Part shown: piece after piece, positions 1,210 through 53,190 of the stretch
How positions within the stretch are numbered: position 1 is the first letter of the stretch
Layout of the letters: every line of letters starts with the position of its first letter
Assembly: GCA_905221615.1 (NCBI GenBank)
Contig: CAJNDT010004668.1
Span: forward strand, 1 to 64,000
Reading direction: 5' to 3'
DNA from: Symbiodinium sp. CCMP2592
Lineage: Eukaryota; Sar; Dinophyceae; Suessiales; Symbiodiniaceae
Length of the DNA: 64,000 bases
Translations under genes and position numbers: made by a program
Notes under the pieces: model-generated
What the model was told of the DNA's origin: nothing
Databases searched by the model: none
Seen by the model: only the letters and a program-made list of their open reading frames with translations

Positions 1210-1415
1210 GACCTACCTCGCGACCAACCGCGGGACGCAAAAGAATGCATCTGAAGAGGAAGTGGAAGCGATCTTCTGTGAGAGTAGGTTGCTTTGAGTG
1301 TGGTGAGTGTCCGGGTGTGCTCGGTAGAAAGGGTGAAGTTCTGAGGTTGCAGCGCTATAGGGTTTTACGGGTTTTTGGGAAGGGTTTTGCAAGTGAGTGT
1401 TAGGCCCAGACCCCC

Positions 1416-32160: not shown

Positions 32161-32166
32161 GGCGAG
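32154..32166. other. Inversion breakpoint 1 (LINE-C segment A / inverted segment B)
   Basis: LINE-C ORF1 on the plus strand abuts LINE-C endonuclease sequence on the minus strand. The junction lies in CAAGGGA, a string both parental ends share. Confidence 0.75.
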
Positions 32167-33189: not shown

Positions 33190-33647
33190 CTACGAACCAG
33201 TCGCCTTGGCAGCGTCAGTGGCCGAGGGCACTCGGGAAGGAGAGCGGCTCCGGGTCTTCGTCGGAGTGGTGAGGCCGACCTGGCGAGCCCCAGGGTTCTC
33301 GGTAGAGCCGTCCTGGGCCTCGTCGGTAAGATCACCGTTGGCCTGCCCGTCACCTGCCGGAGGAGGAGGGGAGCCGAACTTAAAAGGCGTAGGTCCGAGG
33401 CCAGGGGGAGCTTGCATGTCCGGAGGGGGCTTGATCGAGGCTCGAAGGGCATTGAGGTTGGCCTTTTGGTCCTCCGTGAGGGCCTCTGGAGAGAGCCCCA
33501 AGGCTTCGAGCACTAAGTCAACCTCACTCTTAGGGACGTGCAGTAGTACTCCGCGCTCATAAGTGTCAGAGCACTTCCTGGCCGCATTGGTTGCCTCAGA
33601 GATTGCCTCCTGGAGTTCCTGCATGCCGCGGAGAAGGTCGTGGAGTC
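33190..33647 (-). pseudogene. LINE-C ORF1, C-terminal part (inverted segment B)
   Basis: The sequence reads LRGMQELQEAISEATNAARK (end of the coiled coil), a helical block, a proline/glycine-rich part and an SR-like tail (TRSRSPSRVPS), ending in TAG at 33190-33192. It matches the layout of LINE-A and LINE-B ORF1 C-terminal halves. The stop is again followed by an open in-frame ORF2, now across GAG GAT. It is separated from its N-terminal half (31606-32160) by inversion. Confidence 0.8.
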
Positions 33648-33652
33648 AAGGG
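33644..33652. other. Inversion breakpoint 2 (segment B / accessory-gene segment D)
   Basis: LINE-C ORF1 (minus) meets the accessory-gene C-terminal half (plus) at GAGTC/AAGGG. The CAAGGG string occurs at all three breakpoints. Confidence 0.75.
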
Positions 33653-36600
33653 TGACCCAACAACAGACATCTCTCTCGTCCACCACTTTTACCGTCACCG
33701 AACAATGAAGCCTAAGGCTGGTGGTCCCAAGAAGCGACTGTGGGCATGCCACGGTGCGGTATGCCGCCTCACCTTTGGGTACCACAGTACCATCCCGGAG
33801 GCAAAAGAATGGGTCCACCCATATTCAGGCCAGAGGATGACGAGAGATGAGTTCATGAAGATTATCGGATATGACCCTCTCAAGGGTAAAAATCCTGACA
33901 AGGATGGACCCACTGATGGCTCTTACCTCTCACCAGAGGCGTGTCTGACAATGTCGAACCTCGACCCTGCGCCGGTTCTCTGTGAATGGAACGGCCATGT
34001 CGAGGGTGATGAGCCACCAGAGGAAGACTTTGAGTCATACGCAGAGATCTTCTCACAAGAAGCATCAAACGATCTTGACGAGATGTGGTGTACAAAAGGG
34101 CCTTACAAGGTCATCACCATCGCGATCGTCCATTTCAACTCATACATGACTCATAAGGAAGAACAGAGGCGCGAACTGGTGAACGCGTTCCTCAACGAGG
34201 TTCTCCCTTTCAAACCGGATGTAATTGCGGGGGATCTCAATAATATTGCGTCGAGGCTCACCTTAAAAGGTGGAGACGTTCACCCGCGAAACGGTTTGTT
34301 TTCTCTATACCTGGAGAAGAAACTTGCAGCATTCAACAGAATAGCAGGAAGGCACTCACAAGTGCGACACCTCTGCTTGAACAACTCTGACCAGCACAGA
34401 CTGGCACGTGCAGATCGTCTACCGCCGGACCCGGCGAAGAAAGTTGCTGACCTCGACTGTATCAACAGTTATATCCTTGACTGGAGCAAAACGCCGCACA
34501 CGGCGTCACCTAGTCCAAGAGATGCTACACCTGCCGCCGAAAGAACATACTGGGAACGAGTCTCAGATATGTGGCAGGACATGAACAACAACAGGGATAT
34601 CGATATCCGTCTGTTTGTCTCAGTCAAGCAGTACTATTCAACTTTTTCTAACCTTGACCTGTGGTTGAGTCCCTCTGACAAAGATTGGCACAGCCCTTTG
34701 GGCTTCACGATACAACCAATCCTTACAAAAGGGAAACACAACCGGTCAGATGCCCAGGTTCAGAAGATCGCTGACAAGCGACAGGCTTACAAGCAGCGTA
34801 ATGCTGAATACTGGGATTACAAAGACTCATTTGTGTATTCATCCGGCAACAGCTGGTACGACAAACAGCAACCACAAGGTAGCTATCACAGATATGGAAG
34901 ATTCTGGGAAAGGCCGAGGCCTGAACGTCCCAGTGAGCCTGAAGGCCCTCCTCCAAGAAGGAGCCAGGCATCATCGTCCTCTTCACAACAAGATCTACCA
35001 AGATCAAGGTCCAGACCTCACTCAAAGAACCAATATTGTTGACAAGCTCAACATGTCTTTAGAGGAACTGGACACACTTGAGGAACAACAAGAAGAAGAA
35101 CACTCTCCAACAAAGAGTGATATTGAAGAGCACGAACGAGAAACATCAAACCTGATGTCTGCTCAAAGAGATGAAGACGAACAAGAGGACGAATCCTCCA
35201 GCCGGAGGAGAAGAAGGAAGGCATCACGCCCACCGTCTGCTCCGAGCGGCAAGGCACTCAGAACAGCTGCCACAGCAGCGGGGTTGTCGGGCTGGTTCGG
35301 ACACCGTAATCAAGGCGGTGCAAACGCAGAGTCTATCAAGACTGATGAACCTTCACTTCCAAACTCACTAACCAGTGAGCAAGACTTCTCCGTCTTCAGC
35401 ATCGTGTGGAATGTGTTTCTGCTGCTAATGGGCCTACACTGGATGTGGAAGCAGCTCACCAGGGCTCCCATCAGATGTATGGACCGCCAGCAATCAAATG
35501 CAAAAGCAGCAGCGAAACGACCACCACCATTCCTCGAACCCGAGGATGAACCACAGACGCGTGAACCTTTAGGACCCAACAGGGTCAATTCTGGAGAAAC
35601 AACGGATTTGCGACCTGTGTGGCACACTTCCCGAAGCGAAGTCTACCATCTTTCAGACAGCTGTTACCAGCTCAAGCAAGCAAAAGATGTTTCAAGGAAG
35701 GTGCTGTGTAAAACCTGCCTCCAGGCAGTACAAGTTGCGGAGATTCGCAGGAACGATCCTTTTCAAAGAGGTGATACACGACCACGTGGCACCGAAAGGG
35801 ACATTGAACGGTTTCAAACCTATGACGATGCAAGTACTACTCCTCATATGAGGCAATTATTCAGTGATGCATTGCATTCACAAATGGCCGAAGAAGCCAT
35901 GCAGATTACCTATACATCAATCCCTAAGGGATCCTCGGCAAGAGCCAGAGGTACATCTGCACTCGCAAGTGCCTCATCGTCGTCAGTGCCCAAGGCAATG
36001 CCACCAGTGCCTAACAAGGCAAACATGTCACCTCCACCTAAGTCTCCTCCGCCAAAGGCGAAAGGAACAGTACCTTCAGATCCTCCGAGACCAAAAGGTC
36101 CTACCAGAAGAGGAGGTCAAAATCGGCGCATTCAACGAAAAGCAGCTAGAGAAGCCCATAACAGTGGACTCTGCAACCATGCAGACGCTGCACTTGGCGA
36201 AGCCAATCAAGGCCAGGCCATTAACACTATGTGCCGAAACATGGCAGTAAGACACGTCAGCTCTATCGATGCAACGGTAGAAGCAGCCGAGCAGTTTACA
36301 CAACGCGTGCAACAGCACGTAGAAACATATGATGAAGAGGAACCGTGGAGCACGGAGTTTCTACCAGTCGTGGAAGTCCTATTCAGGAACTTGAGCAGCG
36401 ACGAAACAACTGTCATACATGACAATCATACGGCAACTATGCCTATTCAGAAATATCTCGACCTCCTCAGAATCGCACAATCATTGCGAAACTCTATCCA
36501 GAGAGACAAGGAGGAAAGAAAGGATCATCTTGACACCATCCAAGATACTCTATCCAGAGTGGAAATCCTTCTAACAGCACTGAAGGACTCAAAAACAGTC

Positions 36601-36885
36601 TTCAATCAATTGGTCCATTCCTCACTAGAGATAGAGCGAAGACATAAAAACCTCAAAAATGTCCTTGAGACACTTTTCGACGACCAAAGCTCTGAGGAAG
36701 ACCAGTCAGAATCTGACCATGAAGAAGTCCTAACTCCTTCTGCAGCACAGTACTGGAACAGCCTTCATGCCCAAGCCTTATCTCCTTCAGGAGATGAAAG
36801 TGAAAGATCATGGGCGTCCTCAGACGGACAGCTTGAAAGAAGCTTTAGCGCGAGCGGCCTTATCGGGACGCAGCTTGCGTCTTGA
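33648..36885 (+). pseudogene. Accessory protein, C-terminal part: EEP nuclease second half, TM helix, Ada-like zinc, coiled coils (inverted segment D)
   Basis: Two frames joined by one shift near 35000-35040. The first (to about 35040) holds the second half of an EEP (exonuclease-endonuclease-phosphatase) domain: IAIVHFNSYM, VIAGDLNNIA (about 34222) and a terminal DKDWHSPLGF (about 34676), matching the usual GDxN and SDHxPL. The second frame carries an acidic, RRRRR-containing linker and one likely membrane helix (IVWNVFLLLMGLHWMW, about 35400-35450). A Cys/His site like the Ada zinc domain follows (VYHLSDSCYQL...VLCKTCL, about 35640-35722), then proline-rich sequence and coiled-coil helices to the stop at 36885. 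The EEP first half, with the catalytic Glu, is on the minus strand at 41.4 kb; the join IGGA/KGDPTT restores the frame. Nucleic acid or phosphoester substrate unknown. Confidence 0.6.
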
Positions 36886-39800
36886 CAGGGAGCTCGTGCT
36901 GTGCCATATGCCCGTTTGGTCAAAACGCTCCTGCTGTTCGCGGGCGTGGCGACCCTTTCCTTTGGGCGCCATGGTCGCCCTCCTTGAGCCGAAGCTAGCG
37001 GAAGAACTGCCTGGGCCCGGGGAACCTCCGAAGGAGACCTGGGGCCTTCGAGAGGGAAAGTGGCTTTGGGGTCTGAAACCTCAGCCGAAGTGAGGGCAGA
37101 AGCAGACGCAGAACCCTGAAGCGAACCCCAGGAACAAGGCACGGAAGGGACCTTAGGGGCAGCGGCAGAGGCAGAAGGAGAAGCCTGGAGCCCAGGGGAG
37201 GGGGAACCCGTAGAGAAAAACCCCCGCACCGAAGGAAGCGCACAAGGCGCTACGAGCTTTTTTGGCGCGACGCCCATGCGAAGAGTCACTTGGCCATGAC
37301 ACTGGCCACACTTCCAGGACGGCCCCTGGCGCACAAGGCTGTGCGAGGAGTGGACCGCAAAGGGGCACGAAACCGCAGCCGTTCGGCACGGGAATGAAAT
37401 GAGACGCTCGAAGGTTTCCGGCGTGTCAACCTGGTAGATGCAAAGAGAGCACTCGGAGCATTTAACACACATGTTGAAACTCTTCTCCTTAGAGGTGCGA
37501 GCCCAAACGTGCCCGCCTGGAAGAGGGGGTTCGTCAAGGAGGGCCTGCAACCTCTGCCTCTTGTTGGGCGAGGGGGAAGAGGAAGGCTCAAGAGCGGAGA
37601 GGAGGCGGTTCTTCCGCGGCACGAAATCCTCCTTTTCGGCCTTGGCCAAAATTGCGACCGCGCGGTGACCGAGATACTCGCAAACGAGGGAGGTGACACG
37701 GTCTACCTCCTTCTGGGCGGCCAGACGGTGTGGGGTCTGAACCTCCTCCGCGCGGTCCCTGGCGAGCTTGTCCGCAAGAGAGTTGAGCTCATGGCGCCAC
37801 AGGGCTTCAGCGCCAAACTCAAAACAAAAGTCCGAAGGACTAAGGTGAGAGCGAACCCAGTGGGGGTCGGCTCGGTGCCTGTGATCCCACGCCTTGGCCC
37901 ACACAAGCGAGGTACGCTTCGTGAAGGGCCCCTGCAGGCTGCGCAGGGCGGGCTGGCAGTCGCAAGTGAGGTCAAAAGTGCCACGGGAAGAGAGGAGGAC
38001 CTGAGCAATGGCCTCGCTCTCGCCCTCCGGCACAGAAGCAGGGGCAGGCAAGAGCCCGGACAGGGTGCCCAGCACGACAAGGACGCCATCGTTCCTGCTG
38101 GCAACAACCGCAGCCCAGCCAACCGAGCGGAGGCGGCTATCCTTGGAGGCAGGGCCTCCGGAAGCGTCGGTGGCGACGTAGAGCCCGGTTAGGTCAGGGG
38201 TGCCTTCGAGGAAGAGACCTGTACGGCGTACCTCAGCCTCGCGGGCGAGGGGCTCGCGGAGGTAAGGGGGCGCATACCGCGCAACCAAAGGCAGTCGGCA
38301 GGATGTCGCCGCTTGTAGGACAGCAGCCACCCCGCGGGCATGAGGGCGCCGGGGATTTTTTCGCACTCGTAAAGGAGGTGGTGCAGGGTGTTAGGGCCGC
38401 CACAGAACTTGCACCGTTCCTTCCCTCCGTTGCCCGAATGGAGGAGGGCGCCTTGAAAGACGGCCCTAAGGCCATGCCGCCAGGGCTTCGTCCGAGGACT
38501 GGCTAAGAGGCGGCGAGGCACGGTCCAATCGATGCCAAGGGCGGCACCAGCGGCAGTGGAGACGGCGCCGATACGGGACCAGCGCTCGAGCTGAATGACC
38601 CGGCGTAGGAAAGCAGGCCTCAAAAACCGCTCCCGGATCGCGGAAGCGGAAGTGAAAGGTAGCCTCGCGGTGTGTCCAGACCTCAGGGGTAGGGGCAGAC
38701 ACCCGCAAGTCCAGCAAGTACTGGATGAGCGCGGAAACGGGACCGTTCACGATTTTCCACCCATGGGTGGCAGAGGCCTGTCTGGACCAGGAGGAGGCCC
38801 AAGTGCGGGTGAGTAACCGCACGCCTTCGGGTGAGGCGCTGGAGGCAAGACGCCCAAGGGCCTGGAGCTGTTCCACTACCACAAGCTGGTGTGGGTCAAC
38901 GGCCTTGTGGGACATGAGGTCGAGAATAACGTCGGCGGAGCCGTGCTCAAAACGACCAGCCTCGCGCGCAACCGCCGAGCGTAAGACCTTAAGGCGCTTA
39001 GGGGCAACCCCTACGGCCTGATGGCCATAAAGACCAGCCTTAAGGGCGGAGGCTTGGAGCAGCCGGCCACGCACCCACCTGCGGCGAATGCGGAGGCGGC
39101 GCATGTGGCGGACACGGCCGATGCCGGTGCGAAAGCGCTTTTGGGCGGTGGTGATGCGCCGTCGGGTTCGCCCGGGCGCCGCAGCTGCTGAAGCGCGGCG
39201 CGAGCGCGGGCCGTACCGGCGACGAACTTGGTCTTTGTGGTCTCAACCTCTAGGCCCTCAAGGCCGAGGGAGGTATGAAGAACCCGGTAGGCCTGAAGCG
39301 CAGAGGAAGCGACCTCGACAGGGTCGGAACCAACCACGTCTAAACTCACGTCGTCCAACCATAAGTCTGTGTTGGTGACGAAGGGAAGGGAAGAAACCTT
39401 CTGGAGTGGCTCGGACATGGTAAGTTTGGAAAGCGAGGGTGCGAGAGGGCAGCCCTGGGGTACGCCCCGGCCAGGAAAGAGCGGCGTGGCAGCGATCGAG
39501 TCGGCCACGAGACAGCGAGGACCCTGGTAGACCTGGAGGGCGAACCAGAGGTGAAGAGGAGGGAAACTGTGAGCGAGCCCTTGGAGGAGAAGGCGCTCAT
39601 AGCTCACAGAGTCGAAGAAGCCTCGCAAGTCGAGGAAGAGCGACACTATGTGAGTCTTCTCGAGCTTTGAATGCTCTGATCTGACAAGGCGGGCCAGTGC
39701 CGTGTCCAGGCTTGCCTGGCCTGGAACCGCCCGGTCCCACGGGTGGGCGGGGGCGTAAGCCGACGTCCAAGCCGAGATGTCCTGCCACCTAGCTCGTGCC

Positions 39801-41240
39801 CACAATCTCCACAGACACGGTAGAAGACTTATGGGGCGCTCCTTGTCGGCCGACTTCGGGAGAAGAGCGACCTGAACGCAGGTGAGCTGGAAAGGCAGAA
39901 GCACCTCAGCCTCAGCACGGGCGAGGAAGTCGGCAACGAGCTGAAGAGCCGCCGGGTCCAGTGCACGAAGGGCTGGGTAGCTCCAGCCGTCTGGGCCCCC
40001 TTTCTTTTTCCCTGCTTTCTTGAGAAGTTTCTGAAGGTGGGGAACAGTCAAGGGAGCCAGGGTGCCAGAATGGGAGACGGCCCTCGAGCGGAGCTCCGCG
40101 AGGAGAGGGTGAGCAAAGTGCTGGGGGAAAACCGAGGCATGCCAAACGCGGGCCCAATGTTCATGCCTTTCAAAAACACGGCGGAGTCCATCGCAATCTT
40201 GAAAGGGCCGATCAAGCACCTGCTCATGGGACTTGATGGCTCGAAAGAGCGGCCCCAGGTGTGAACCGGAAGCTTCCTCCAGCCACTCACCGTACTGGTC
40301 AGCTTGCTGGGCAGTTTGCTCGCGCCGGAGTTGGCCAAGGAGGGCAGTGCCTTCGGCGCGGAGGGTGGCGGAAGAAGCAGAGCCGTCGCGCACCCGGTCA
40401 CAAAAGGCGCGGACCTCCGAGGGGAGGGAAGTGTCCGAAGAGGACCACAAGAAGGACTGCACAGCTTCGGGCCGGTCGAGAAGGTGAAGCACGGCTGACA
40501 CCAAGGAGGGAAGCTGGCCTTTCCAGGCAAAGGTAACAGAGTGGCCCTGGACGAGGGGCTTGTGAAGAAAGGGGACGAAAGCTCCACGCCCTCGGTCGGG
40601 GAACCCGTGAGAGACCTCGAGGAAAGAGCTCAACTCGGCGAAGTCGAGAGTGAGCTTGTCGGTGGATGTGAGGCCAAGAAGATTAACCTCAGCGATAGGC
40701 GAGGGGCTCGGGACCGAGGGTTGAAAAGGCAAGGGGTCAGGAAAGACCTCACAAAAGGTAGCGAGTTGCGGGTAGGGAAGCTGCAGAGAGCTGAGCTGAA
40801 GAGTGGCCCGCAGAGCGCAGTGAGGCTTGAAGGGAACGACCCAGTCCTGAGCGACTTGCAGGGAAGCAACAGCCGGAGACGAGACCAGAAAGTAGTCAAG
40901 TTCCCGGTCGGTTGCTGCGGTGGGTGAACCGGAACCCAGGAAACGCCCATGGGAAACTTCCTCAAGCCGAGTGGCGAGGAGATCTTGTATGGGGTTGTTC
41001 CAGTCACCAGCAACGATCCACACACCCCGGAGGGAAGGAAGGAAGGCTAAGAGGCGAGCAAGGACATCGGCGTTGACCGGAGAGTTAAAGCCAGTACCGG
41101 ACTGGAGGTAAATGGAAACCAGGGTCAGTTCGAAACCGGAACACCGAAGCGAAACCGCCAGGAAACCACAACCCTCCACGGTGTGGGTAAGGACATGACG
41201 GGGATTAAGGAAGGAGCGGATGAGGACACCGAAACCTCCC
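36886..41240 (-). pseudogene. LINE-C ORF2, endonuclease to C-terminal zinc domain (inverted segment C)
   Basis: Read on the minus strand from 41240: endonuclease remainder (GDWN, DRELDYFLVS, KPHCAL), RT (KKGGPDGWSY, RPISLLPCL, FLDLRGFFDS, GVPQGCPLAPS and catalytic WLDD near 39355), thumb, zinc knuckle (CKFCGG...LHHLLYEC, about 38345-38420), RNase H (ATDASGG, ESEAIA, CDCQ, HWVRSH, ELNSLADKL) and the C-terminal zinc domain (CSECSLCIYQ...SSHSL...WKCGQCH, about 37280-37460). Frameshifts lie near 39100, 38600 and 38330. The last frame runs on to 36765, overlapping the tail-to-tail accessory gene, so the exact LINE end is uncertain. No GAAAATCCC-type 3' end is present; the element looks 3'-truncated. 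Confidence 0.85.
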
Positions 41241-41248
41241 AAGGGGCG
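41236..41248. other. Inversion breakpoint 3 (LINE-C segment C / accessory-gene segment E)
   Basis: The junction CCTCCCAAGG/GGCGCC. LINE-C endonuclease sequence on one side and the accessory EEP domain on the other meet on the minus strand; both are cut mid-domain. Confidence 0.75.
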
Positions 41249-44200
41249 CCTCCAATATACATTGAGGGTGCCTCAGGCTCCTTGGGAGGAGAATGGATTA
41301 GCATCCCTCTGTAGTCATGTTGTCGCATGGTTGCGATCGAATACTTTGACGCAAGTGCTCCTGCCTCGAGTACGAGGGTAATATGTGCTGAATTGTTGAA
41401 GCACATGTCAATAAGAGGGTGGTAATCGAATCCCTTCTCAGGTTTGAGTTTCTTTTTGGGATTCCCTGCTGGCACCGGCGCTCGATCCATATTTCCCCAG
41501 TTGCATACCACTAGGCTTAGTGATACGCTGTCTGGGTTTGAGCCCTCTATGTGTTCTCTCTTTTCGTTAACACCGGCCATCCTATTACGAACTATCTCGT
41601 AATGTGCGTCGAGCACCAGTTTGTCTTCGTAGCCAGTAAGAGAGAGAAAAGAAGCCGGGTGGCTTGTTCTGGAGTCCTTGATATTGATGTGACTCTTGTT
41701 AATGCTCTTGTATTCCTCCAGGGTTGGAGCCTCTGTGGAGCTGGCGTAAGTATTAGGAGGATTATTCCTAATATCATCAAAGCTACACGGATCTACGCCT
41801 GGATGATCTCTCATGAACAAATTCCTTGCGTGGTCACAATACATGTTGATTTTCTGGACTGCCAAATCTACGTCCTCAGGTGTGAGGATGGCCTCGTATA
41901 AAAACTGACGCTCTTCTGATGTCATTCCTGCTGACACCTTAGAGGTCTCGAGGCAATCGATTGGCAAGACGCACTCGCACATCTGTTGTTTACCCTGTGG
42001 GGTAAGTCGACAGTCTGCACATACAATCGTACCACAGGAATAGCAAAAATAGCCTGTAGGCTGGTTGCAAAGATCGCAGAGAGGATTATCTGGTCGTGTC
42101 ATCAGCCGTATCCTTTGGTTAAGACTCATGGCTGTCCTGCGTACTCCTACAAATCTCTCCTTGGTAGGAGGTGCAGAGGAGGAAGATGCCGAATCTCTGG
42201 GTCTGTCCCACTCCTCTTCGTCAGGAGCCTCAGAATCCTTGATCATGAGTGGACTTCGGATTTTTCGATTCCATCGACTAACCCAGATTCTCTCTTTCAT
42301 TTCCTGTTGCATAGCCGGGTTAGACGATGACTTCGAGATTCGGTGCTTGCGATTTTCTCGAAGTCGAGCGCTGATGCGCTCATGTTCTCTTACGAGATCT
42401 TCCTCATCAGCAGGTTCCTCGTATTCGAGGTTGAGCTTGCTTCTGTTGACTCGATAATAACTTTCTGTTTCAGGATCGAAGAGAACTAGGAATTTCTCCT
42501 TCTCCTTTTTAGGAGATTTTGGTTTCTGTGGCTCTTCGTCTGAACTCTGAACATATTCTGTTTCAGGCTTTGGTTGGTCAAGTTTGACCTCCTTAAGTTT
42601 CTCTGTGATCTCTTCCGTGGGAGATTCTTTCTTTTCCTCCGACGCTGCAGGTGCAGAGTTCGTCTTGTGAGACGGATTAACATCAACTCGGAGTTCTGAG
42701 GATGACGAAGATTTTGAGCTCTTTTCACTTGATGCCGATTCATCGTCTGATTCTTCGTCACGATCCTGGTTAGGATCGGTTCCTCAGGTTCCGTCTCTGT
42801 TCCAGAAGATTCTTCCTTGGGAGGAACTACGTTGGCGGAAGTATCCTGAACAGGTTCTGGAGGTTTGTGACCTGTCGTTATCTTAAGAACTTCGGTGGCG
42901 CTTCTGGTGCCGTCGGAGTTCCAGAGCTGTCCCATAAGACTGTCCGGATCCTTGTCAGCCTCGGCCTGCCGGGCGAGCTTGGATCTCGGATGGATCTCCT
43001 TTGCAGTAGTCTCCGTTTTCGGAGGTACCTCACCTGCAGAAGCGGTTTGCTCCAGGTTTGGAGCTGTGTCAGCCTCTGTCTGTGGCAGAGAAAAAGACTT
43101 CTTGTGAGAAGATCTAGCCTTGGGAGGCTCTGGTGGCAGATTTCGCCTTGCCACTTTTCGAAGTGCCGATTCGATTTCTCGGCCGTAATTTGCGCACCAT
43201 TTCTTCGACTCGTAAGTCGCTGACGGCATCTGTTCGGAGCAATGGTCTGCCCACCATGGTCCGATGCTCTTGAGCTCATCGTATTGCGATGATATCCAGA
43301 GTGTTTCGGAGGGTGCGAATACGGCGCTAAGAGTACGGGCATGCACTACATCTGGTGTAGCAAACATCCCTACTTGCGACTGCCACAGGTTTGTGACTTC
43401 GTTTACTACGTTATTTGCATCGAAGACCAGAAGCAGTGCCTTGTTGGCACGCAACATGGTCGGATTGGGATTCGCCAGGTTTAGCGTTGAGAACTGAACA
43501 GTGTCCCTGTTGGAACGACTGTTTTCATTCACAAGCGCTTGGAAATCTGGTGCTGTGACCACCTGCGCTAGGAGGTTTGATGGTACCAGACCGTGCCTCA
43601 GGATTGAGGATAATGCCTGTAGGTCCGTGGCATGCATGATGTAACAAGGGTTGTTCTGTCGAACAAAATCCTCCATGCCGACGGGCCTTGGCGCGTTAGT
43701 GGAGAGACGCTGTGCATGGGACTGCACAGGATTGCTCCCCGTTGCCATGAAGTCTGAGATGGTCATGTGTGACCTTGGTCTCTCTTCTTCAGGATCTGGT
43801 TCTTCAGCTCTTGGTAGAGTTCGTCGTGAACCGTGTCCTCCCACTGCCGAAAGGAAAATTTTGCTCATGGTCAACACATTTGCATCCGGTGGGATGTTAA
43901 CGGCGGCATCTGTGGTTTCGGCCTTGCCATCTTTGTTATAAACCATGGTGACCACAAACCTAGACTTAGTGTTGAGGAGGACACCAAGCGCGATCTCTTG
44001 TGGTGTATACTGTGCGAGCTCTGCATCGGCCAACTTGAACATGTCCAGAAGATAATTGTGTTGGCCAGCAAAGAGATCTGGGCGCTGGTTCTGAAGGTGT
44101 CTTGTTGAGTGTGCCAACCACCTTCCGACTCTGTTGGTCTTGGAAAGAATGTGGAAGCACATCTCTGGTGAGAGACCTGTTACATCTGCCAGTTTTGGCA

Positions 44201-44705
44201 CTGAGGAGGAATAGTCATATTCTCCGGATCCATCAAGGCTCACACATTGTTCTACCTCCAGTGGGAGGCCTGTCTGAAGGTGTTGTGCAAGCATCGTACA
44301 GAACTGGTGTGGATCACGAGCGTGATTACCGACATTGTTATCCCAGTATACAAGGGGACTGTTGTCCCATGGTCCTTGAAGGACTCCTTCATAGAGCCTG
44401 ACTCCATGTCTGGAGTTTAGAGTGAGCCTTGCTCTACTCGCATGGCCATATTGTGAGATCAATTGAGCAAGATCTCTTGGATGCGGATTGAACACCTGTT
44501 GGTGATTCATGATGATGAATTGAGGCTCATGATTTTTCTCACGTTTGTGAATTCGGTGTCCACCGTGTTCGGTGTTTCGACGTGATGCTTCCCGACGAGA
44601 CTCGGGGTACGAGCTATCCATGTGTGGATGTCGCTCATGGTACGCCTGCACTGCCCTGGGTAGGGCGTGTCCATCACGGCTACGGAAGTTTGATCGTGTG
44701 CTCAT
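41242..44705 (-). pseudogene. Accessory protein, N-terminal part: KptA/Tpt1-like domain, zinc cluster, EEP nuclease first half
   Basis: I chose the ATG at 44705 (MSTRSNFRSRD); the frame is open further up to 44939, overlapping the copia-B stop by 10 nt. Residues about 187-256 (GRWLAHSTRH..., TPQEIALGVLLNTKSRF) and 352-472 (CYIMHATDLQALSSILRHGL, VQFSTLN, ALLLVFDANNV, MFATPDVVHA) match in order the two lobes of KptA/Tpt1 RNA 2'-phosphotransferase, an ADP-ribosyltransferase-fold enzyme that removes 2'-phosphates from RNA. An acidic linker follows, with one frameshift near 42780. A Cys-rich B-box/RING-like site (CDLCNQ...CYSCG...CADC, about 42078-41950) comes next, then the EEP first half (VVCNWGNM, LVLEAGAL with the catalytic-type Glu). 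It stops at IGGA, 41245, at the inversion junction. Alternative for the first domain: another ART-fold protein. Confidence 0.6.
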
Positions 44706-44929
44706 TACGGCACAATGACCAAACAGGATCAGGAACGCTTGGTTAGCCCGAAAGGCTGATTGCTGTGAGGCTCGAGGCTGAAAGCGGCTGCGGATGATAC
44801 AGAACATATAATTCTCATGAACATGTCCGATCTTAATGAAAACGCAGCTCGCAGACACAAATTTTCTTTTAGACGGAAAACAGTCTAAATAGAAAATCCA
44901 GCACATGGTTGTGCTACCAGCAAACGAGA
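44706..44929 (-). other. Spacer between copia-B stop and accessory-protein ATG
   Basis: It is open in the accessory frame but unlike coding sequence in composition. No polypurine tract or LTR start is visible, so the copia-B element does not obviously end here. Confidence 0.4.
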
Positions 44930-47900
44930 CTACCACCATATTCCTTGGCAGTAAAATAATCGGTAAATCTCTGTTGAGATATCAATTCCAAGGAAGGCTA
45001 CCGCTGTGGCGGCATTCTTGAGATTGTCTATGATCCACCGAACAGTGAAAGCTTTATGTTGAAGAAGTTCACGGAAGGGTGGATGAATGTCTGTTTCTGG
45101 TAAATTCCCTGTTTCCAGAGCCTTGATAAGCTCATCAGGTTGCGCCGAGTGCTTTGTTAATGCATCAGCTAGGCAGTACTTCGAGCTTACATGAGCTAGG
45201 TCATCTAAAGATCCAGAGTTGGATTCCTTACGAAGCATCTGAATGAGGTGGTGAGTTTCCTTCTGCTCTGGAAGGTGTGTCGTGCCTGCTGTTGTCACAA
45301 GATTGTTCGCATCTGTTCTGATATGTATGGGTACGGTCTCTGATGAGAGATCTGCCCAGAGTCCCTTGAGGAACAGGCAAGTACCAAAGCAACGCATCAG
45401 TGCGTTAAGCTCTGCCACTGTTGTGGACATTGTGGTTGTCGTAATCTTGTGAGACTCATAATCCACCAGGCTACCTCTCGAGGATGTTTCCTTAATAGAG
45501 GATTCAGAGAAATCGTTCTTCTTGGAAGAAGCAGCTGCTGCTGATTGTTTCATTCCCTTTAGCTTTGGATTTCGATCTTCAGCAAGGAAAATAACATGTG
45601 CTCTCTGAGATGATTTGTCATCATTGTTCCTGTAGGAAGCATCAGGGTAACCGAGGATTCTGAGATTTCCTTTCAGCGGCCAAAAACGCAGTTCTACTTC
45701 AGTAGACTTCAAAATCCTAACAAGCTTGTTCAATTCTCGAATATCACCGATAGTAGGCTTGGCAGCCTTACTCGCACACCGACTGAAGCGATAACAGATG
45801 TGAGCTTGAGTCCGGCTTTGTAGCCAGTTGATCTGTCCTAAAACACTTCTGTAAGCAGTGTGCTGCTGTGGTGTGCATTGTTGCTCATTGTTGAGCTTCT
45901 TATCAAAAACAATTTCCTCTAGAGCTTCAACAGCTAGGTTCTGATTTACTGAGATATGTGCTGGCACTGATGCTGTAGCATCCTTCCAGACTAATCTCTG
46001 TCCTACAAACATAATATCGTTCGTGTCTTCAGAACCGACTGCAAACTCCTTTTTGATCGATTCAATCACGGCCTTACGAAAGGTGTCATCACCGGCCATG
46101 CACAGGTCATCTACATGTAAACAGACTACTCCATGTACCTGTCTACCCTTGGCATTGTTGCCTGCTATGGGATCTAGGAGATAGTCAATCGCTGATTCCA
46201 TGGTCTTTGGCTGAGACTTCTTGAGCTCAGCATCTGCTGTTGCAGACTTCTTACCATACAGAACATATGTACAGCGATCCGCACGGGTTGGCACCAGGCC
46301 GTAAGACAGGAGTGCCTTATCAACGATGTTCCACCATCTTCGAGGTGCATCGTTAAGTCCATAAGCGGGTTTCTTCATCCTCGCTGCAATGTAGGGAGGA
46401 TAACCTGCTTCAGGAGGAATCTGACAGATTATGTCTCTCGACTCATCATAGGCTTCACCCTGCAGAAAAGCAGTCTTTAGGTCGATGTGTGTCAGTCTCC
46501 ACAGCTTGTTAGCTGCTAGTTGAATCGCCAAGCGGAAACCTGGGCGACTCGCAGCAGGACTATCAGTTTGCTGTATGTCCTTTTGTCGATCCTGGAAACC
46601 TCTTAGGACCCATCGGGCCTTGCACTTAAGGAAGTTTCCGTCCTTATCTCTTTTTAGAGTCAGGACCCATCGACCAGTGACATAATTTCGGATGTTTCCG
46701 AGTTTCCGTGTATCGACGAGCTCAAAGACATCATTGTCTAGCCAGCTCTGATATTCTGCTGCTTTCGCTTCATCAAACTGTTTCTTCATCTCACGCTTTT
46801 CCTTGGCGGTTGCCTCCTTCCGTTGTGCCTTCTGGGTCAAATTTGCTGAGTTCCTGGGGGAACTTAGGGATAAGGCCTTGTCCTCTTCCGTGAGAAGATC
46901 ATACTCTTCACGGATGTCAGATCGGAACCTTTTGGTGGGTTTATACCGTGTTCGGTCTGACCTCACTCTTGATGTTACCTCTCTGATGTCTACGGGTCCG
47001 CCATGCATGTACCGAGGCATGGAGAAAGAACCTGTGTTACTGCACAGTTTCTGTTCTTCTGTGAGAAGGATCCAGTCCTTCTCATCTACGACCAGGTCAC
47101 CTTCCTCATCAGAGTAATACCTTGTGTCTTCTGACTCGGCATCGCTCTCCGGTTCTGGTGAACCAGAGGTGTGAGGAGGAGCGGACGGTTGTCCGGGGTC
47201 GTCCGGGACCAGTTCTTCTTCAGAATCTTCTTCATCTTGTTGTAACGGAAGAATGGGTCCCTGTGGATGTGCCTTCGGTTTAGGTTTTGGTGTCGGCACC
47301 TGTGAAGGTGATTTCTGTTTGTGCGGCGAAACTTTCCTTTCCGATGAAGACCTTGGCGACACATCACCCCCCAGACGCCGAGGAGACGGAACGCGAGGAG
47401 GCGGATGCACGCGAGGCTTAGCCCGAGCAGGAGCCACGGGCTCATCGGAGGAAACGGCCGGTAGTCGCGGTGGAGGTATGGGAGGAGGAGGACGCGACGG
47501 CGGCGTGCCGGGAGGCATCGGCTGATCTGGTTCCGGCATAGAGACATCGTCAGATGTGATCCGTGAGCGATTAGTGCTCATGGGTTCTGACGGGTCTGAC
47601 GGCGAAACCTCTTCGTCCGACATGATAACATCCGGCGGTGTTCGCACGGACGGTGAAGTCTTGCCGCCTGTCATCTGGAAGAGCACCCCCGAGAAGGTTG
47701 ATGGGTGTACTTTATTCCAGGAAACCTGGTGCGGCAAGCAACACGTCATAGTCGAATTGGGCTTCTTCTTGTTCCAGAAGACAAGAACGCCATCAGTTAC
47801 ACTGGTGAGTGCTTTGACTGTTCCAAATGTACCTCTGTATAGAGTACACTGTTCGAAACCAGACCCTGGTAAGAGTCTTGATCTAAGGCGAGTAATGTCT

Positions 47901-50900
47901 GACACCAAGGCATCAAGGGACGGTGATGGTTTGGAATGATGCAATGGTAATTCAGTTTTACTCGATAAGGAATTTACTCTAGCAACAAGTGATCTGATTT
48001 TCGGATCTTGCAAGAGTTTGGAATCCTTGAGAGGATTTGCTGTCAAAAGTGAATACTCCTGGTCAAGAAGTTCCGAAAGTCCCTGGAGGCATTCATCTCC
48101 AGAGTATTCTAGCATGTCTGTGACCAAAGAAAGATGAGATGCATATGCATCTCTCTTCAGGAATCTTGCCAAACACGAGGCAAAGGTCTCACAGAATTCA
48201 TAAGGATACACTTGTGCGAGTTTCGTTTTAAGACCGTAGCCTTGAATACCCTTTTCGTCTCCTGGTGGAGATGTTGGAGATTTCGTTTTGGCAGAATGCC
48301 TCTGGAGAGGAGTTAGAACCTGCGGTGGCAGGTTGTGCATGAAAATCGAGGATTTCGATTCATAGTATCCTTTTGGATCTTTCATGCCATAGGCTTGTAG
48401 GTTACAGACCTCATAGCTGATCTTGCGGTTGGAAAACAGGCGTTTTGCTTCTGGTGAAGACCAGAGCCTGCTGTAGTATGGGTTCTCAAGAACAAAGTAA
48501 CGTCCGAGCTTCATTTGGTGGTCTGCGACCGATTCACAGAATTTTAAAACAGAAAGTCTCTTGGCAGAGCCTTTCTTCCACTGTGAGTACCAGCTAGACC
48601 ACTGAGAGTGATCGGGTGACATAACAATAATAGTAGGTTCTTGTTCCTTGATGATCCTAAGAAGATTGGAGCGACCTTGAGGTTGCTCAAGATCTAGACC
48701 ACTACGCAAGTCGACTGGCTGACCTACTCGCAGACCTGACAGGGCAGCCTTGTGACTCATACGGGGAGATCCACCGTAGAGTTCTAGGAAGTCAATCTTC
48801 CCAGTGCTGGTGACCTGCCAGTGACACTCTTGATGCGGAACCGTTAGGTCTGTCGACTGCAGGGAAGCATCAAAGGTGACCATGCAACTTGCGTGATCAG
48901 AACCTTCTGACGTCAGAGTTTCCTCATCAGGCGCGAGAGGAATCTCCACATCAGATGTTATGTCATAATTTTTCCTCAGTTTTGAGATATTAACGCGGAC
49001 GATGCGTGTTCCAAGATCCACACCTACCATGGATCCTCCGAGTTCGGAGATCACCTTTCCTTTTAGCCAAGATCCATGTTTGGACCCAGTTGATCCAATC
49101 TTAGACTTATCCTCTGACCAGTAGAAAACCTTATCTCCCAAAGAGAAAGGTCCTTCGGTCATTGACAGTCTGGCCGCAAGATCTCTGCGCAGATCATCAG
49201 ATTGGCGTGCCTCTTGGTAAGCCCTGTTGGCAAGCTCCTTAATGGCTCTCGCAGTGACTTCCGTATCAGTTGGATTACCTGTCAACTGATTGGGATCAGC
49301 GTTCTCTGGTGTTATAACATCTCGAGGACGCCTACCAAAGGCCATTTCTAAAGGAGTAACTCCTCCGTAGGTAATCGAAGAGTTTCTTGCCAAACATGCT
49401 TGTCGAACGAGGTTGCCATACTTCATGGTGATTCCGTTATACTGCGGGTCACCATCCTTCAGGATCTGAAGTATGATCTTAATCTGATGCTTCAGCAATC
49501 TTACAGCAGCTTCGGCCCTGTTGGGCCATGGTGTTCCAGGTCCTGTTGCTACAGGCTTGATATTCTGCCGATTGTAATAAGCCTCCATTTTTGGAGTCAT
49601 GAATGCTTGATCTCCAACTACAACCTTTGGGTTGATCTGAAATTTCTCAAAGTAGTCATTCATAATCGACATTGTAGTATGCTCTTCTTTATCCTGGACT
49701 ACTTCGGAAGTCAACAGGTTTGTTGCTCCGTCATAGAGAATAAGAAATATTAAGCGACTATTCTTGCCGGGAATTGGAAGCTCACCGTGATCTACGAAGG
49801 TGAGATCACCGAAAGTCTCTGATCTTAAACCGGAAATCTTCGCTCTTGAAGGAGCTCTCACGTTTTCCTGACAGGCTGAACACTTTTTGACCAGTTGGTC
49901 ATATAGCTGATATATCTCCTTTGGGATCTGTAAGGCTTTCGTGCGTCGCTTGAACTGATCCGTACTCATATGACGGTGCTTAAGGTGAAGCTTATAGAGT
50001 TCTACAGGGTCCTTAAGCTTCTCATGAATCCTGCGAAGAGCAATGGGAAGAGATGGCGATGGTTCTGCGACAGTCTCTTCACCTGTAGGTGAGTCTGTAC
50101 CAGGAGCCGGGTATTCTCTTGACTCAAGTGGTCTTACCTCCGTCCCGTCATCAGCTCCTGGGACTGTAGACTTCTCTTCAACAGGAGGTTTGACCGCATA
50201 TTTGCGGGTTTTCTTCAGAAGGTTTTTAAGACCCCTTGGAGTCTTTGTCTTCGCAGGTGGAACCTCAAGTCTTTCTTCTTCTGGAGGTTCGTGCGGTGCA
50301 GATGATTCTGCCGGTTTATCTCTAGAGCCTGATGATGGTTCCGGCGGTTCGGAAGGCTCAGGAGCATCACCAGATAGTTCTGGTGGATCGGGTTTCTTGG
50401 CAGATGATTCTGCCGGATCAGATGGAAGAGGCTTCTTCTTACCTAGAATGCCCTTCGGTGGTGGATCAGCTGCTCCCTCAGGTGCCTTGTCGCAACCCTT
50501 GAGGTACGTATGAGCCCTTTTCTGTCCTGCGCAGGCTGGACAGCGACCTTCCGGGATCCTAGTATAAGGTCTTCCTTCTTCCTTTGGCTTCCTAGCTCCT
50601 AGAGCAGTCTCTGTCGCATTGAACGACGTACCTGATTTAGGGAGATACTTCCTGGTGGAAGTGAAGCCTAGAAGGTCCAATACCAAATGGTTATTGGTAC
50701 TAATCGGAAGAGGGGTTTTATACAAACCGAAAGCTTCACACGTTGCTAGGTCAGCTGTGGGACTACACTCGAGGGTCATTCTTAGATTCCTCATCTGTTC
50801 GATGGAGAACAAAATGGGAACTCTCCCCTGATCCAGAACTTCTATGGTTGTATCTCTTCTTGGAGTTGTGTTGAACCATAGAGTTACACGCTCCTTGATA

Positions 50901-52816
50901 AGAGCTGTTTCACTATCTGCGAAAGAGAACTTCGTGTTCGAAGGTGAGAAAGTGAAATCAATCATGCCTGGGGCACGTTGCTTCACGGCCTTGATAAGCC
51001 TGTTCACCGCATAGCGGGAACCCATAGCCCTAGTACAACCTGAGTCAAGTATGACAAAGGTAGGGTTCTTATCAAGATTGATCCGCTCTGTGAGAGCAGA
51101 TAGGACGGTGTGCTGCAACGGAAACACCGCTGTTGCAGTTTCAACACCTTGCCCCTCGGATGGTTCAAAGACCTGGGGCACGTAACTCACTGATGAGTTG
51201 TACACGGGTTCTTGGTGCGCGCTCGGATCTGTGCCTCTACCTGATGATCCTGCTTGATTTCTTCTCTTCTTTCTCCGTGTCTTTCTTCGTGAGGCTTGTG
51301 ATGCATAGTATGTATAAGACGTTTGATCGTCATAAGCGGCATAATTCCAACTGGAGTCAGTATAATAACTGTCCTCATACCATGAATCCCAGCTCGGTGC
51401 GGTGGAACTTTCATAGGCCTGTGGAGATCCAGTTTGGTCTCCTTGTAAGGAGGCAGACTTAGCTGTATCCTTACCTTTGCCTTTTGCCTTTGTACCTTTG
51501 AAGGAGCTTCCTTTATCTCCTTTGTCCTTTCCTTTTCCTTTGCCTTTTCCACCTTTTCCTTTTTCCTTTCCTTTACCTTTACCGAAATAGCTGGAATCAG
51601 TTGGATCATGTTCTGCCTGGTTGGCTCTCCCTTTTCCGCGGTATGACCTAAAACGGCCACGTCCTTTTCGCTTGCCACCCTTTGCTCTTCCCGGTGATCC
51701 GGGACGCATTCTTGGTCTTCTTCCCTTTTTGAATCTCCTTGCAACGAAGGCCTCATGGTCATCAACTGTCCAAAAGACAGCTTCTTCATCCTCGGCGGCA
51801 AGAAAGCCTTCCTCAAGGGTGTCTTCGTCTTGGAGCCAGAATCCATCGACTCCATCGTATTCACCCTGATCGAGGATGAGGAAGTTTCGACCTCCGCGTT
51901 TGCGGCGTTGGTCTCTCCTTCCATGGCGGTCCTTCTTGTGAGAAGAGTGCCGAATGTTGGGATCCTGCAGACCAGTTCTGGTCGTTGAGAACTGATCGAA
52001 CATGGTCTGCCGTACCACAGGGTACGTGTAGGTCTCAATTCGGTGACCTTGGTTGGTCAATGCTGTTACCAACCTCTCACGTTGCATCTCATTTAGGTCG
52101 GACTGCACTAGGAAGAGGAGAGCTAGGAGATTATCATTTAGAGGAAACGCTCTTCGATGATTATCAAGGCGTTCCTTGTTCCATGTTTCGAAGAAACGTG
52201 CGGCGTATGTGTCTCTCTCGGTTGCATCCTGTAGGCGCAAGAAGGTTTGATCTGCCTGCACAGCTTGCATGAAATCTGGATGGGCATCCTCCAGAGCTAT
52301 CTCTGGTAAGAGATCCATCCATGAGTTTTTCACGCGCTGTAGCACGATCTCAAACTTGGCAATCCAAGTCACAAAGTCTTGGTTGCCCTTCCATGCCTTG
52401 AATAGGCCGAGGAAACGCCACAGGAAAACGTACTGTTCTCCTTTCACGAAAAATGGACGCATCTTCTTCTTGAAGTAATCTACTCCATCTGGGGCTGCAA
52501 GCCTTTCTCGGTTCAGTGATTCCTTTTGTACTGCGGCCAATCCGGAGAGCCTCGTCTTGAGAGACGGACCTCTTTTGGTGTCATCCAGCGTTGTTATGTC
52601 GCACCAGTCGTCAATCAACTGTTCATACTCAAACCACGAGGTGGTGCCATCATAGGCAGGCGCGATCTTGGGCGTTATGCCTAATGATGCAAGCATGCGG
52701 TCAGATGTTGCATATGACTGTGCGACATAAGTGGCTGGACCTTGGGAGGTCTCTTCGTTCTCATATCCCCCGGAGGATTGGGAACTGCCGTCGGCTTCGC
52801 TATGCGAGCTCGACAT
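44930..52816 (-). CDS. copia-B Gag-Pol, intact 2628-residue polyprotein with methyltransferase-like insert
   Basis: One uninterrupted frame from the ATG at 52816. Gag region to about 51600, with a basic KGKGKGKEKGKG nucleic-acid-binding tract. Aspartic protease ILDSGCTRA (about 51045). Integrase with pre-integrase HHCC (HLKHRHMS...CSAC) and catalytic VDHGE, VVGDQ, RAEAA (about 50000-49330). From about 48800 to 48230 comes a methyltransferase-like domain (FLELYGGSP motif I, VMSPDHSQW at the motif IV position with Asp where Cys is expected, LENPYYSRLW motif VI). A proline/acidic linker precedes RT (HIDLKTAFLQG, AYGLNDAPRRWW, CLHVDDLC with HVDD) and RNase H (DASYRN, TVAELNAL, RTDANNL, ADALTKHS). 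This is a coding-competent Ty1/copia element, unusually long. Its GC is visibly lower than the LINEs around it. Confidence 0.92.
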   Translation of the reverse strand: MSSSHSEADGSSQSSGGYENEETSQGPATYVAQSYATSDRMLASLGITPKIAPAYDGTTSWFEYEQLIDDWCDITTLDDTKRGPSLKTRLSGLAAVQKESLNRERLAAPDGVDYFKKKMRPFFVKGEQYVFLWRFLGLFKAWKGNQDFVTWIAKFEIVLQRVKNSWMDLLPEIALEDAHPDFMQAVQADQTFLRLQDATERDTYAARFFETWNKERLDNHRRAFPLNDNLLALLFLVQSDLNEMQRERLVTALTNQGHRIETYTYPVVRQTMFDQFSTTRTGLQDPNIRHSSHKKDRHGRRDQRRKRGGRNFLILDQGEYDGVDGFWLQDEDTLEEGFLAAEDEEAVFWTVDDHEAFVARRFKKGRRPRMRPGSPGRAKGGKRKGRGRFRSYRGKGRANQAEHDPTDSSYFGKGKGKEKGKGGKGKGKGKDKGDKGSSFKGTKAKGKGKDTAKSASLQGDQTGSPQAYESSTAPSWDSWYEDSYYTDSSWNYAAYDDQTSYTYYASQASRRKTRRKKRRNQAGSSGRGTDPSAHQEPVYNSSVSYVPQVFEPSEGQGVETATAVFPLQHTVLSALTERINLDKNPTFVILDSGCTRAMGSRYAVNRLIKAVKQRAPGMIDFTFSPSNTKFSFADSETALIKERVTLWFNTTPRRDTTIEVLDQGRVPILFSIEQMRNLRMTLECSPTADLATCEAFGLYKTPLPISTNNHLVLDLLGFTSTRKYLPKSGTSFNATETALGARKPKEEGRPYTRIPEGRCPACAGQKRAHTYLKGCDKAPEGAADPPPKGILGKKKPLPSDPAESSAKKPDPPELSGDAPEPSEPPEPSSGSRDKPAESSAPHEPPEEERLEVPPAKTKTPRGLKNLLKKTRKYAVKPPVEEKSTVPGADDGTEVRPLESREYPAPGTDSPTGEETVAEPSPSLPIALRRIHEKLKDPVELYKLHLKHRHMSTDQFKRRTKALQIPKEIYQLYDQLVKKCSACQENVRAPSRAKISGLRSETFGDLTFVDHGELPIPGKNSRLIFLILYDGATNLLTSEVVQDKEEHTTMSIMNDYFEKFQINPKVVVGDQAFMTPKMEAYYNRQNIKPVATGPGTPWPNRAEAAVRLLKHQIKIILQILKDGDPQYNGITMKYGNLVRQACLARNSSITYGGVTPLEMAFGRRPRDVITPENADPNQLTGNPTDTEVTARAIKELANRAYQEARQSDDLRRDLAARLSMTEGPFSLGDKVFYWSEDKSKIGSTGSKHGSWLKGKVISELGGSMVGVDLGTRIVRVNISKLRKNYDITSDVEIPLAPDEETLTSEGSDHASCMVTFDASLQSTDLTVPHQECHWQVTSTGKIDFLELYGGSPRMSHKAALSGLRVGQPVDLRSGLDLEQPQGRSNLLRIIKEQEPTIIVMSPDHSQWSSWYSQWKKGSAKRLSVLKFCESVADHQMKLGRYFVLENPYYSRLWSSPEAKRLFSNRKISYEVCNLQAYGMKDPKGYYESKSSIFMHNLPPQVLTPLQRHSAKTKSPTSPPGDEKGIQGYGLKTKLAQVYPYEFCETFASCLARFLKRDAYASHLSLVTDMLEYSGDECLQGLSELLDQEYSLLTANPLKDSKLLQDPKIRSLVARVNSLSSKTELPLHHSKPSPSLDALVSDITRLRSRLLPGSGFEQCTLYRGTFGTVKALTSVTDGVLVFWNKKKPNSTMTCCLPHQVSWNKVHPSTFSGVLFQMTGGKTSPSVRTPPDVIMSDEEVSPSDPSEPMSTNRSRITSDDVSMPEPDQPMPPGTPPSRPPPPIPPPRLPAVSSDEPVAPARAKPRVHPPPRVPSPRRLGGDVSPRSSSERKVSPHKQKSPSQVPTPKPKPKAHPQGPILPLQQDEEDSEEELVPDDPGQPSAPPHTSGSPEPESDAESEDTRYYSDEEGDLVVDEKDWILLTEEQKLCSNTGSFSMPRYMHGGPVDIREVTSRVRSDRTRYKPTKRFRSDIREEYDLLTEEDKALSLSSPRNSANLTQKAQRKEATAKEKREMKKQFDEAKAAEYQSWLDNDVFELVDTRKLGNIRNYVTGRWVLTLKRDKDGNFLKCKARWVLRGFQDRQKDIQQTDSPAASRPGFRLAIQLAANKLWRLTHIDLKTAFLQGEAYDESRDIICQIPPEAGYPPYIAARMKKPAYGLNDAPRRWWNIVDKALLSYGLVPTRADRCTYVLYGKKSATADAELKKSQPKTMESAIDYLLDPIAGNNAKGRQVHGVVCLHVDDLCMAGDDTFRKAVIESIKKEFAVGSEDTNDIMFVGQRLVWKDATASVPAHISVNQNLAVEALEEIVFDKKLNNEQQCTPQQHTAYRSVLGQINWLQSRTQAHICYRFSRCASKAAKPTIGDIRELNKLVRILKSTEVELRFWPLKGNLRILGYPDASYRNNDDKSSQRAHVIFLAEDRNPKLKGMKQSAAAASSKKNDFSESSIKETSSRGSLVDYESHKITTTTMSTTVAELNALMRCFGTCLFLKGLWADLSSETVPIHIRTDANNLVTTAGTTHLPEQKETHHLIQMLRKESNSGSLDDLAHVSSKYCLADALTKHSAQPDELIKALETGNLPETDIHPPFRELLQHKAFTVRWIIDNLKNAATAVAFLGIDISTEIYRLFYCQGIWW

Positions 52817-52898
52817 TGTGCTGCCTCTTATCCGCTTGGTTAAGCGTTCGGCGAGGCCGACCGCTGTAGCGGACTTTGGGAGGCGGGCGGCCCTTTCC

Positions 52899-52912
52899 GG
52901 GCTCCGCTACCA
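52899..52912 (-). promoter_or_regulatory. Possible primer-binding site of copia-B
   Basis: On the minus strand it reads TGGTAGCGGAGCCC, 80 nt upstream of the Gag ATG. TGG plus a complement to a tRNA acceptor stem is the usual copia PBS form, and TGGTAGCGGAG resembles sites for initiator Met tRNA. The tRNA itself is not in the window, and the flanking bases do not show a clear CA LTR end. Confidence 0.45.
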
Positions 52913-53168
52913 GAAAACTGAGCCGATACACCCACAAGGAAATGCTCCTTGTTAGGAGGTGTATGACCAGTTTATTCCCTAAGGATCAAAGGGCAGCGCC
53001 CTGCACACGGACAGTAGTTGTTTTGTCTTGCTACGCAAGGAGAGCTTGTCTTGTCTCAATATGGTAAAACCACTGTGAGCCAATGGGCAGCGGAATGTAT
53101 ATGTATGAGCATGCAGCCATTGCTGTAGGTACCTGTTAGAGCTACCCCTTTAGAGGTTTACGGAATCA
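52913..53168 (-). promoter_or_regulatory. Candidate 5' LTR/leader region of copia-B
   Basis: Non-coding on both strands. Minus-strand reading shows CATACATATACATT (TATA-like) and GGGAATAAACTGG (poly(A)-signal-like) before the PBS candidate, as expected in an LTR. No second copy exists in the window, so the LTR borders cannot be set. Confidence 0.35.
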
Positions 53169-53190
53169 CCCCCCGCCCCCCCCCCCGCCG
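53169..53190 (+). repeat. Poly-C tract
   Basis: A run of about 22 bases, nearly all C with two G interruptions, at the boundary between copia-B flank and LINE-type sequence. It is prone to sequencing and assembly errors. Confidence 0.85.

Follow-up and report, generated by a model that had tools for sequence, protein, structure and literature searches.

The DNA analyzed here is a stretch of 64,000 nucleotides (the window) of Symbiodinium sp. CCMP2592 (contig CAJNDT010004668.1), and it carries a retrotransposon, copia-B, whose polyprotein gene is followed by a giant accessory open reading frame (ORF). Our analysis identifies copia-B as almost certainly a Ty1/copia-type long terminal repeat (LTR) retrotransposon of ~15.9 kb with this large accessory ORF, in the order LTR, primer binding site, gag-pol, internal polypurine tract (PPT)-like sequence, accessory ORF (~2305 aa), PPT-like sequence and LTR. 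The N-terminal domain of the accessory protein is very probably homologous to Tpt1/KptA, as judged by profile scores and catalytic residues, and we propose that it acts on RNA; for the anatomy, the homology and the RNA-directed role taken jointly we estimate a probability of about 0.6. An earlier annotation made from the letters alone (the sequence-only reading) had proposed the association from position and composition.

The window alone cannot decide whether the accessory ORF is a member of copia-B, because it holds only one LTR; the window copy shows the 5′ LTR, and an LTR search of the window gave no second one. Both ends were fetched for 10 copies in the same genome, selected from the matches listed with a long open frame. 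An LTR of ~250 bp precedes gag-pol and recurs after the accessory ORF in all ten, placing the accessory between Pol and the 3′ LTR, which is the arrangement that had been set in advance as the test. The distances are nearly constant: the frame starts 7932-7938 nt past the LTR, and the 3′ LTR follows 7481-7514 nt further on, for a total of 15.9 kb. LTR pairs are 96-100% identical in nine copies; the tenth pair (C3602) is gapped and 85% identical, and that copy abuts a second element. Exact 5-bp target duplications flank eight of the ten copies; six are homopolymers (GGGGG or CCCCC), so AACCT and GAGGG alone count as strong. A 40-nt flank with ≥60% G or ≥60% C was found in 8/10 fetched copies, against 0.02% of 9138 window stretches. 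The copies read at their ends lie mostly in poly-G or poly-C tracts (flanks of L010-L029; see also positions 53169-53208 of the window), and on C1516 two elements (L036 and L041) stand in tandem, LTR adjoining LTR, with a short C tract between them.

We also searched this 1.1-Gb genome with accessory and Pol queries. The accessory query gave 54 scored matches among 2924 candidates, and every one of the 54 begins at query residue 1 or 2, in sequence overlapping the Pol end, so the accessory is not a single-copy host gene, an alternative that the sequence-only reading had itself raised. Its other alternative, an LTR at the junction of Pol and accessory, found no support either: none lies there in the window, as first noted, nor in the 11 copies aligned at this point (L030-L040). 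For the Pol C-terminus, 150 matches were scored of 1102 candidates, and at least 101 of the 150 have a scored accessory match downstream on the same strand, 95 of these at 4.5-4.7 kb. With a 108-aa piece of the accessory as the query, all 150 matches scored, of 748 candidates, were ≥99% identical. Taken together, the accessory belongs to copia-B, and copia-B is a large, young, recently amplified family.

The giant protein had originally been joined across an inversion. In six of six fetched copies listed as open, the accessory occupies one frame of 2393-2399 codons from stop to stop, which bears out that joining, and the L030 protein reads ...SMYIG/VKGDP... across the site of the window junction. 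Because intact copies keep the accessory in one frame, the window copy is to be read as carrying an inversion and at least two frameshifts. The segment 33642-41250 is a complex rearrangement in which a long interspersed nuclear element (LINE) is itself split; misassembly could also account for it. The final ~89 accessory residues and the 3′ LTR were not found in the window. As first described, the accessory follows an intact, single-frame Pol on the same strand and its frame opens at the Pol stop, where an ATG at 44939 overlaps the stop by 10 nt. The overlap exists, but it probably does not mark the real start: in 3/3 aligned subgroup B copies a TGA lies between this ATG and M93, so M93 (window 44705) is the likely start, giving ~2305 aa, and initiation at the overlapping ATG is unlikely. 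The subgroup B copies L037, L038 and L040 have a common insertion of 17 nt (14 in L040) that divides the accessory frame; in L038 this yields two open parts, of about 759 and 1651 codons. A programmed frameshift was considered and rejected, as the shift sites differ (a 1-nt deletion in the window, a 14- or 17-nt insertion in subgroup B).

We then compared the selection acting on the accessory between subgroup A (L030) and subgroup B (L038 and L037, in this order), by simple pairwise counts of nonsynonymous over synonymous changes (dN/dS) on these few copies. The ratio was 0.27 and 0.25 for the whole accessory, 0.31 and 0.25 for the Tpt1-like domain, and 0.25 and 0.24 for the EEP-like region, while residues 93-260 were less constrained (0.54 and 0.57). 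Codon usage of four accessory pieces correlates with that of copia-B Pol at 0.43-0.73, compared with -0.03 to 0.02 for copia-A and two LINE frames; the LINE1_ORF2 row, read in a wrong frame with 58 stops, is excluded from this comparison. In this recently amplified family, the accessory is conserved and under selection. That it is instead a passenger, a captured host gene carried without function, is extremely unlikely: disrupted frames are indeed common, 83 of the 150 scored falling outside 2391-2405 codons, but the other 67 are open at that length, dN/dS between the two subfamilies is ~0.26, and no match lacks the Pol end among the 54 scored.

The sequence-only reading had described a two-lobed RNA 2′-phosphotransferase-like domain, and both profiles and catalytic residues support it. 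On the cut-out domain, the Pfam family PTS_2-RNA (PF01885) gave an E-value of 0.0027. A hidden Markov model (HMM) built from E. coli KptA and five KptA domains of the same genome gave 1.1e-7 on the domain and 6.3e-6 on the whole protein, compared with 7.5e-4 for the best of 200 shuffles, and this match was carried by the NAD lobe (conditional E 5.1e-7). In a joint alignment, Arg18-His19-Arg68-Arg121 of Clostridium (Cth) Tpt1 align with accessory R294, H295, R341 and R492; Lys66, His101, Thr103 and Arg140 are likewise conserved, and Lys11 is replaced by Arg. The accessory thus keeps 9/13 key Tpt1 positions and 4/4 of the tetrad, whereas 200 shuffles reached at most 7/13, with a full tetrad in two. 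Eight of these residues are identical in 12/12 distinct readable copies, a count that leaves out the unreadable L003 and L039 and takes L037, L038 and L040 only once, as they duplicate L004, L006 and L007. The residue roles follow the available portions of PMC6333775 and PMC6582358, where the tetrad is essential in Tpt1; the former also places the H.T motif and arginines in contact with NAD+.

The Tpt1-like domain admits another interpretation, in which it is an ADP-ribosyltransferase that modifies host proteins or host RNA as a counter-defence factor. Tpt1 does have an ADP-ribosyltransferase fold, with H.T and arginines touching NAD+ (PMC6333775, in the part available), but R294, H295 and R341 of the RNA lobe are retained, their Tpt1 counterparts contact RNA phosphates, and a protein-directed enzyme would presumably not need them; we consider this role quite improbable. 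Homology searches elsewhere returned little: scans of viral and bacterial/archaeal contigs with the protein query P0002 gave no relative, nor did scans of viral contigs with copia-B Pol or E. coli KptA, and phmmer against PDB sequences gave no hit for P0002 and P0005 and weak matches only for P0003 and the whole accessory.

Downstream of the Tpt1-like domain, the remaining regions named in the sequence-only reading fared unevenly. The zinc cluster corresponds to a zf-B_box match that is just above the cut-off in the window frame (24.4 bits; cut-off 24.1) but falls below it in a full-length copy (20.9). For the EEP domain, all motifs are present and in order (N1161, E1206, H1407, GDxN at 1440-1443, D1515 and SD..H at 1588-1593) and identical in both subgroups compared, though they were picked after the fact, and Pfam (Exo_endo_phos, PF03372) gave no match up to E 10. 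Based on these motifs, the EEP identity of the region is a fair guess, at even odds. EEP endonucleases serve integration in LINEs, and the region might likewise be a DNA endonuclease that aids integration, for example into G/C tracts, in line with the G- or C-rich tracts beside 8/10 copies; nevertheless a copia integrase by itself would account for the 5-bp duplications and the region lacks profile support, and such a function appears very unlikely. The proposed Ada-like site has its H...C...CxxC residues but matches no family, and the proposed membrane helix is a hydrophobic stretch that exists but is weak (best 19-residue hydropathy 1.56, peak at 1824-1842). This stretch bears on an alternative in which the accessory has an env-like or structural role: the hydrophobic segment and the fingers would then be the parts that count, and the Tpt1-like fold an inherited but non-catalytic scaffold. 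The sense orientation and the place ahead of the 3′ LTR would suit such a protein, and the peak is largely conserved in both subfamilies; on the other side stand the low hydropathy and the tetrad and NAD-site residues conserved in 12/12 readable copies, which leave this explanation with a low likelihood, comparable to that of counter-defence.

Several results weigh against an RNA-directed Tpt1-like protein with an EEP partner. The PTS_2-RNA score of the domain is 18.2 bits, under the curated cut-off of 26, and a Pfam scan of the whole accessory gave no PTS_2-RNA match; because the cut-off was not reached, we use the name "Tpt1/KptA-like" only. With the KptA HMM, the other (N-terminal) lobe aligns in the right order but does not reach significance by itself (0.5 bits), and Ser10, Tyr80, His125 and Arg139 of Cth Tpt1 are not retained. 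Single-sequence AlphaFold models of the KptA-like and EEP-like regions were unusable (pLDDT 36.5 and 31.0). An HMM of three LINE EEPs scored the EEP-like region under the best shuffles, and hhalign with XthA added gave 1.35, compared with 8.6 for the best of 30 shuffles. Finally, the accessory diverges faster than Pol, with 92-94% amino-acid identity between subgroups against 99.3% for the Pol end (obtained with L035).

Copia-B gag-pol itself contains an RVT_2 reverse transcriptase (Pfam; residues 2058-2217, 61.5 bits, E 1.2e-16). Upstream of it, a weak DDE-transposase match (residues 1017-1129, 19.1 bits) is the sole integrase profile signal, and protease, integrase and RNase H were recognised by eye. 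The probable primer binding site, TGGTAGCGGAGC, would base-pair with ...GCTCCGCTACCA at the 3′ end of a tRNA; we suspect the initiator Met tRNA as its partner. A degenerate C5 methyltransferase-like domain was also seen by eye between the integrase and the reverse transcriptase (about residues 1335-1520 of frame 44930-52906), and a similar one at the end of copia-A (4649-5752); neither has a Pfam match. The sequence-only reading had stated that no polypurine tract separates the accessory from Pol, which proved incorrect: the 20-nt TAAAAGAAAATTTGTGTCTG lies 58 nt past the Pol stop, about midway along the element, and agrees at 19/20 positions with the PPT-like sequence ahead of the 3′ LTR in other copies. 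It may be a central PPT, or a scar of the original Pol-LTR junction where the accessory was inserted. The features of the window copy are collected in Table 1.

Table 1. Copia-B and the sequences interrupting it in the window.
Feature	Position	Strand	Basis
5′ LTR, ~250 bp, TG...CA	52919..53168	(-)	Found at both ends of 10/10 fetched copies
Probable primer binding site TGGTAGCGGAGC, 6 nt past LTR	52901..52912	(-)	Direct sequence reading
Copia-B gag-pol, single intact frame, 2628 codons from ATG	44930..52816	(-)	RVT_2 profile
Internal polypurine-like copy TAAAAGAAAATTTGTGTCTG	44852..44871	(-)	19/20 identical to sequence preceding 3′ LTR of other copies
Accessory N-terminal part, M93 to about the 1-nt deletion site	42777..44705	(-)	ORF and copy comparison
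Two-lobed Tpt1/KptA-like domain, residues 260-575 of stop-to-stop frame	43257..44204	(-)	Profiles, catalytic residues
Accessory second frame, up to rearrangement junction (GGAG shared)	41250..42776	(-)	ORF and copy comparison
B-box type zinc finger	41998..42084	(-)	Pfam zf-B_box
EEP-like N-terminal piece (motif I N, motif II E), unconfirmed	41253..41532	(-)	Motifs only
LINE fragment interrupting accessory, EEP middle to near ORF2 end	36850..41250	(-)	ORFs, Pfam
Accessory C-terminal part, inverted; further frameshift near 35030	33642..36840	(+)	ORF and copy comparison
H/C-C..C zinc-like site	35641..35724	(+)	Motif; H...C...CxxC
Hydrophobic stretch, possible membrane helix	35389..35448	(+)	Hydropathy
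EEP-like C-terminal piece (HFN, GDLN, DLD, SD..WHSP), unconfirmed	33646..34720	(+)	Motifs only
Probably other part of same LINE, ORF1 middle to EEP N-terminus	32160..33641	(-)	

Elsewhere in the window, positions 22051-31300 hold four tandem units of ~2.25 kb that are about 96% identical, and within this region lies a double relict of the spliced-leader sequence (22277-22306). This relict, the tandem genes and the presence of copia and LINE elements are in keeping with a dinoflagellate.

We further examined KptA in the rest of the genome. A search with PF01885 scored 150 of 1550 candidates; all matches shown are over the cut-off, at 92-178 bits, and many are near-identical copies of one family. 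Canonical KptA ORFs adjoin reverse transcriptases in the three LINE families examined, in which 136 bits was obtained for KptA in the two ORFs scanned. In L062/L067, a KptA ORF of 757 aa (136 bits) is followed by EEP and RVT_1 ORFs. In L049/L068, the KptA ORF is followed by ORFs for EEP (below the cut-off), RVT_1, a C2H2 finger and a ubiquitin hydrolase. L064/L066, a 10.1-kb tandem, has a 1576-aa ORF with RVT_1, a ubiquitin-hydrolase domain at its end and an EEP match below the cut-off, together with a 304-aa ORF and a 665-aa KptA ORF; in L066 the latter (889-2886, minus strand) shows a PARP-like match of 21.0 bits (cut-off 26.7) and then canonical KptA at 136 bits. As the KptA loci examined belong to LINEs, KptA is a recurrent retroelement gene in this genome. 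The copia-B domain is diverged and probably a case separate from the LINE KptA.

For the RNA-directed role that we favour, we propose the following mechanism, which is tentative and has the odds somewhat against it. The accessory would be translated from M93 as a separate cistron, given that a stop and 224 nt lie between Pol and the accessory, perhaps from an RNA that arises by spliced-leader trans-splicing or by read-through. Its Tpt1-like domain would then act, with NAD+, on phosphate groups of the element's own RNA, in one of two ways. It may remove 2′-phosphates at nicked-and-religated sites, which would impede reverse transcription, or it may protect 5′-phosphate ends from decay with ADP-ribosyl caps. 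Such capping of RNA is carried out in vitro by human TRPT1 and Streptomyces KptA, and human TRPT1 requires the tetrad for it, according to the portion of PMC6582358 available. The EEP-like region would serve as a phosphoesterase in the same RNA-end processing. Since canonical KptA occurs in three LINE families as well, a shared pressure on retroelement RNA of this host is suggested. A stronger version, in which retroelements of two unrelated classes (a copia element and several LINE families) separately acquired Tpt1/KptA-type enzymes and copia-B encodes a complete RNA-end processing polyprotein in the env position, seems unlikely; the cause of the uptake would be regular damage, religation or end-marking of their RNA in this host.

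If this stronger version is true, it would be, to our knowledge, a first RNA-repair module of retrotransposons. Among the papers listed by our literature searches, which covered the open PubMed Central subset, none names a KptA/Tpt1-bearing retrotransposon in its title or the opening of its abstract. The Tpt1-like enzyme of this young, amplified copia family, together with the canonical KptA of the LINEs, offers a direct handle on the role of Tpt1 outside fungal tRNA splicing, and on whether dinoflagellate retroelement RNA meets a 2′-phosphate or RNA-cleavage barrier.

Compared with known systems, copia-B shares LTRs, primer binding site, RVT_2 with integrase upstream and 5-bp duplications with Ty1/copia (Pseudoviridae-type) elements, and differs in its length of ~15.9 kb and the ~2300-aa accessory ORF before the 3′ LTR. 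An additional ORF ahead of the 3′ LTR has precedents: plant LTR elements carry sense ORFs after pol, in this position and orientation (PMC7264820), but in the part of that paper available these are env-like and no RNA-repair-type enzyme is described among them, whereas copia-B combines Tpt1-like, B-box and EEP-like regions. With Tpt1/KptA/TRPT1 (PF01885; CthTpt1 6e3a), the copia-B domain has in common the lobe order, the Arg-His-Arg-Arg tetrad, H.T, the lysine and one NAD arginine; in contrast, it stays below the Pfam cut-off, has inserts between strands and is embedded in a giant retroelement protein. The KptA-bearing LINEs (L062/L067, L049/L068, L064/L066) likewise unite a retroelement, KptA and a phosphoesterase-type domain, but they are non-LTR elements (RVT_1) with a canonical KptA in its own ORF and an EEP of the LINE endonuclease type. 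Enzyme capture by dinoflagellate retroelements has a further parallel in LINE and DIRS elements with DNA methyltransferases (DNMT), as given in the accessible part of PMC5890265, according to which Symbiodinium copia has no DNMT domain; those elements share the capture with copia-B and differ from it in both enzyme and element class.

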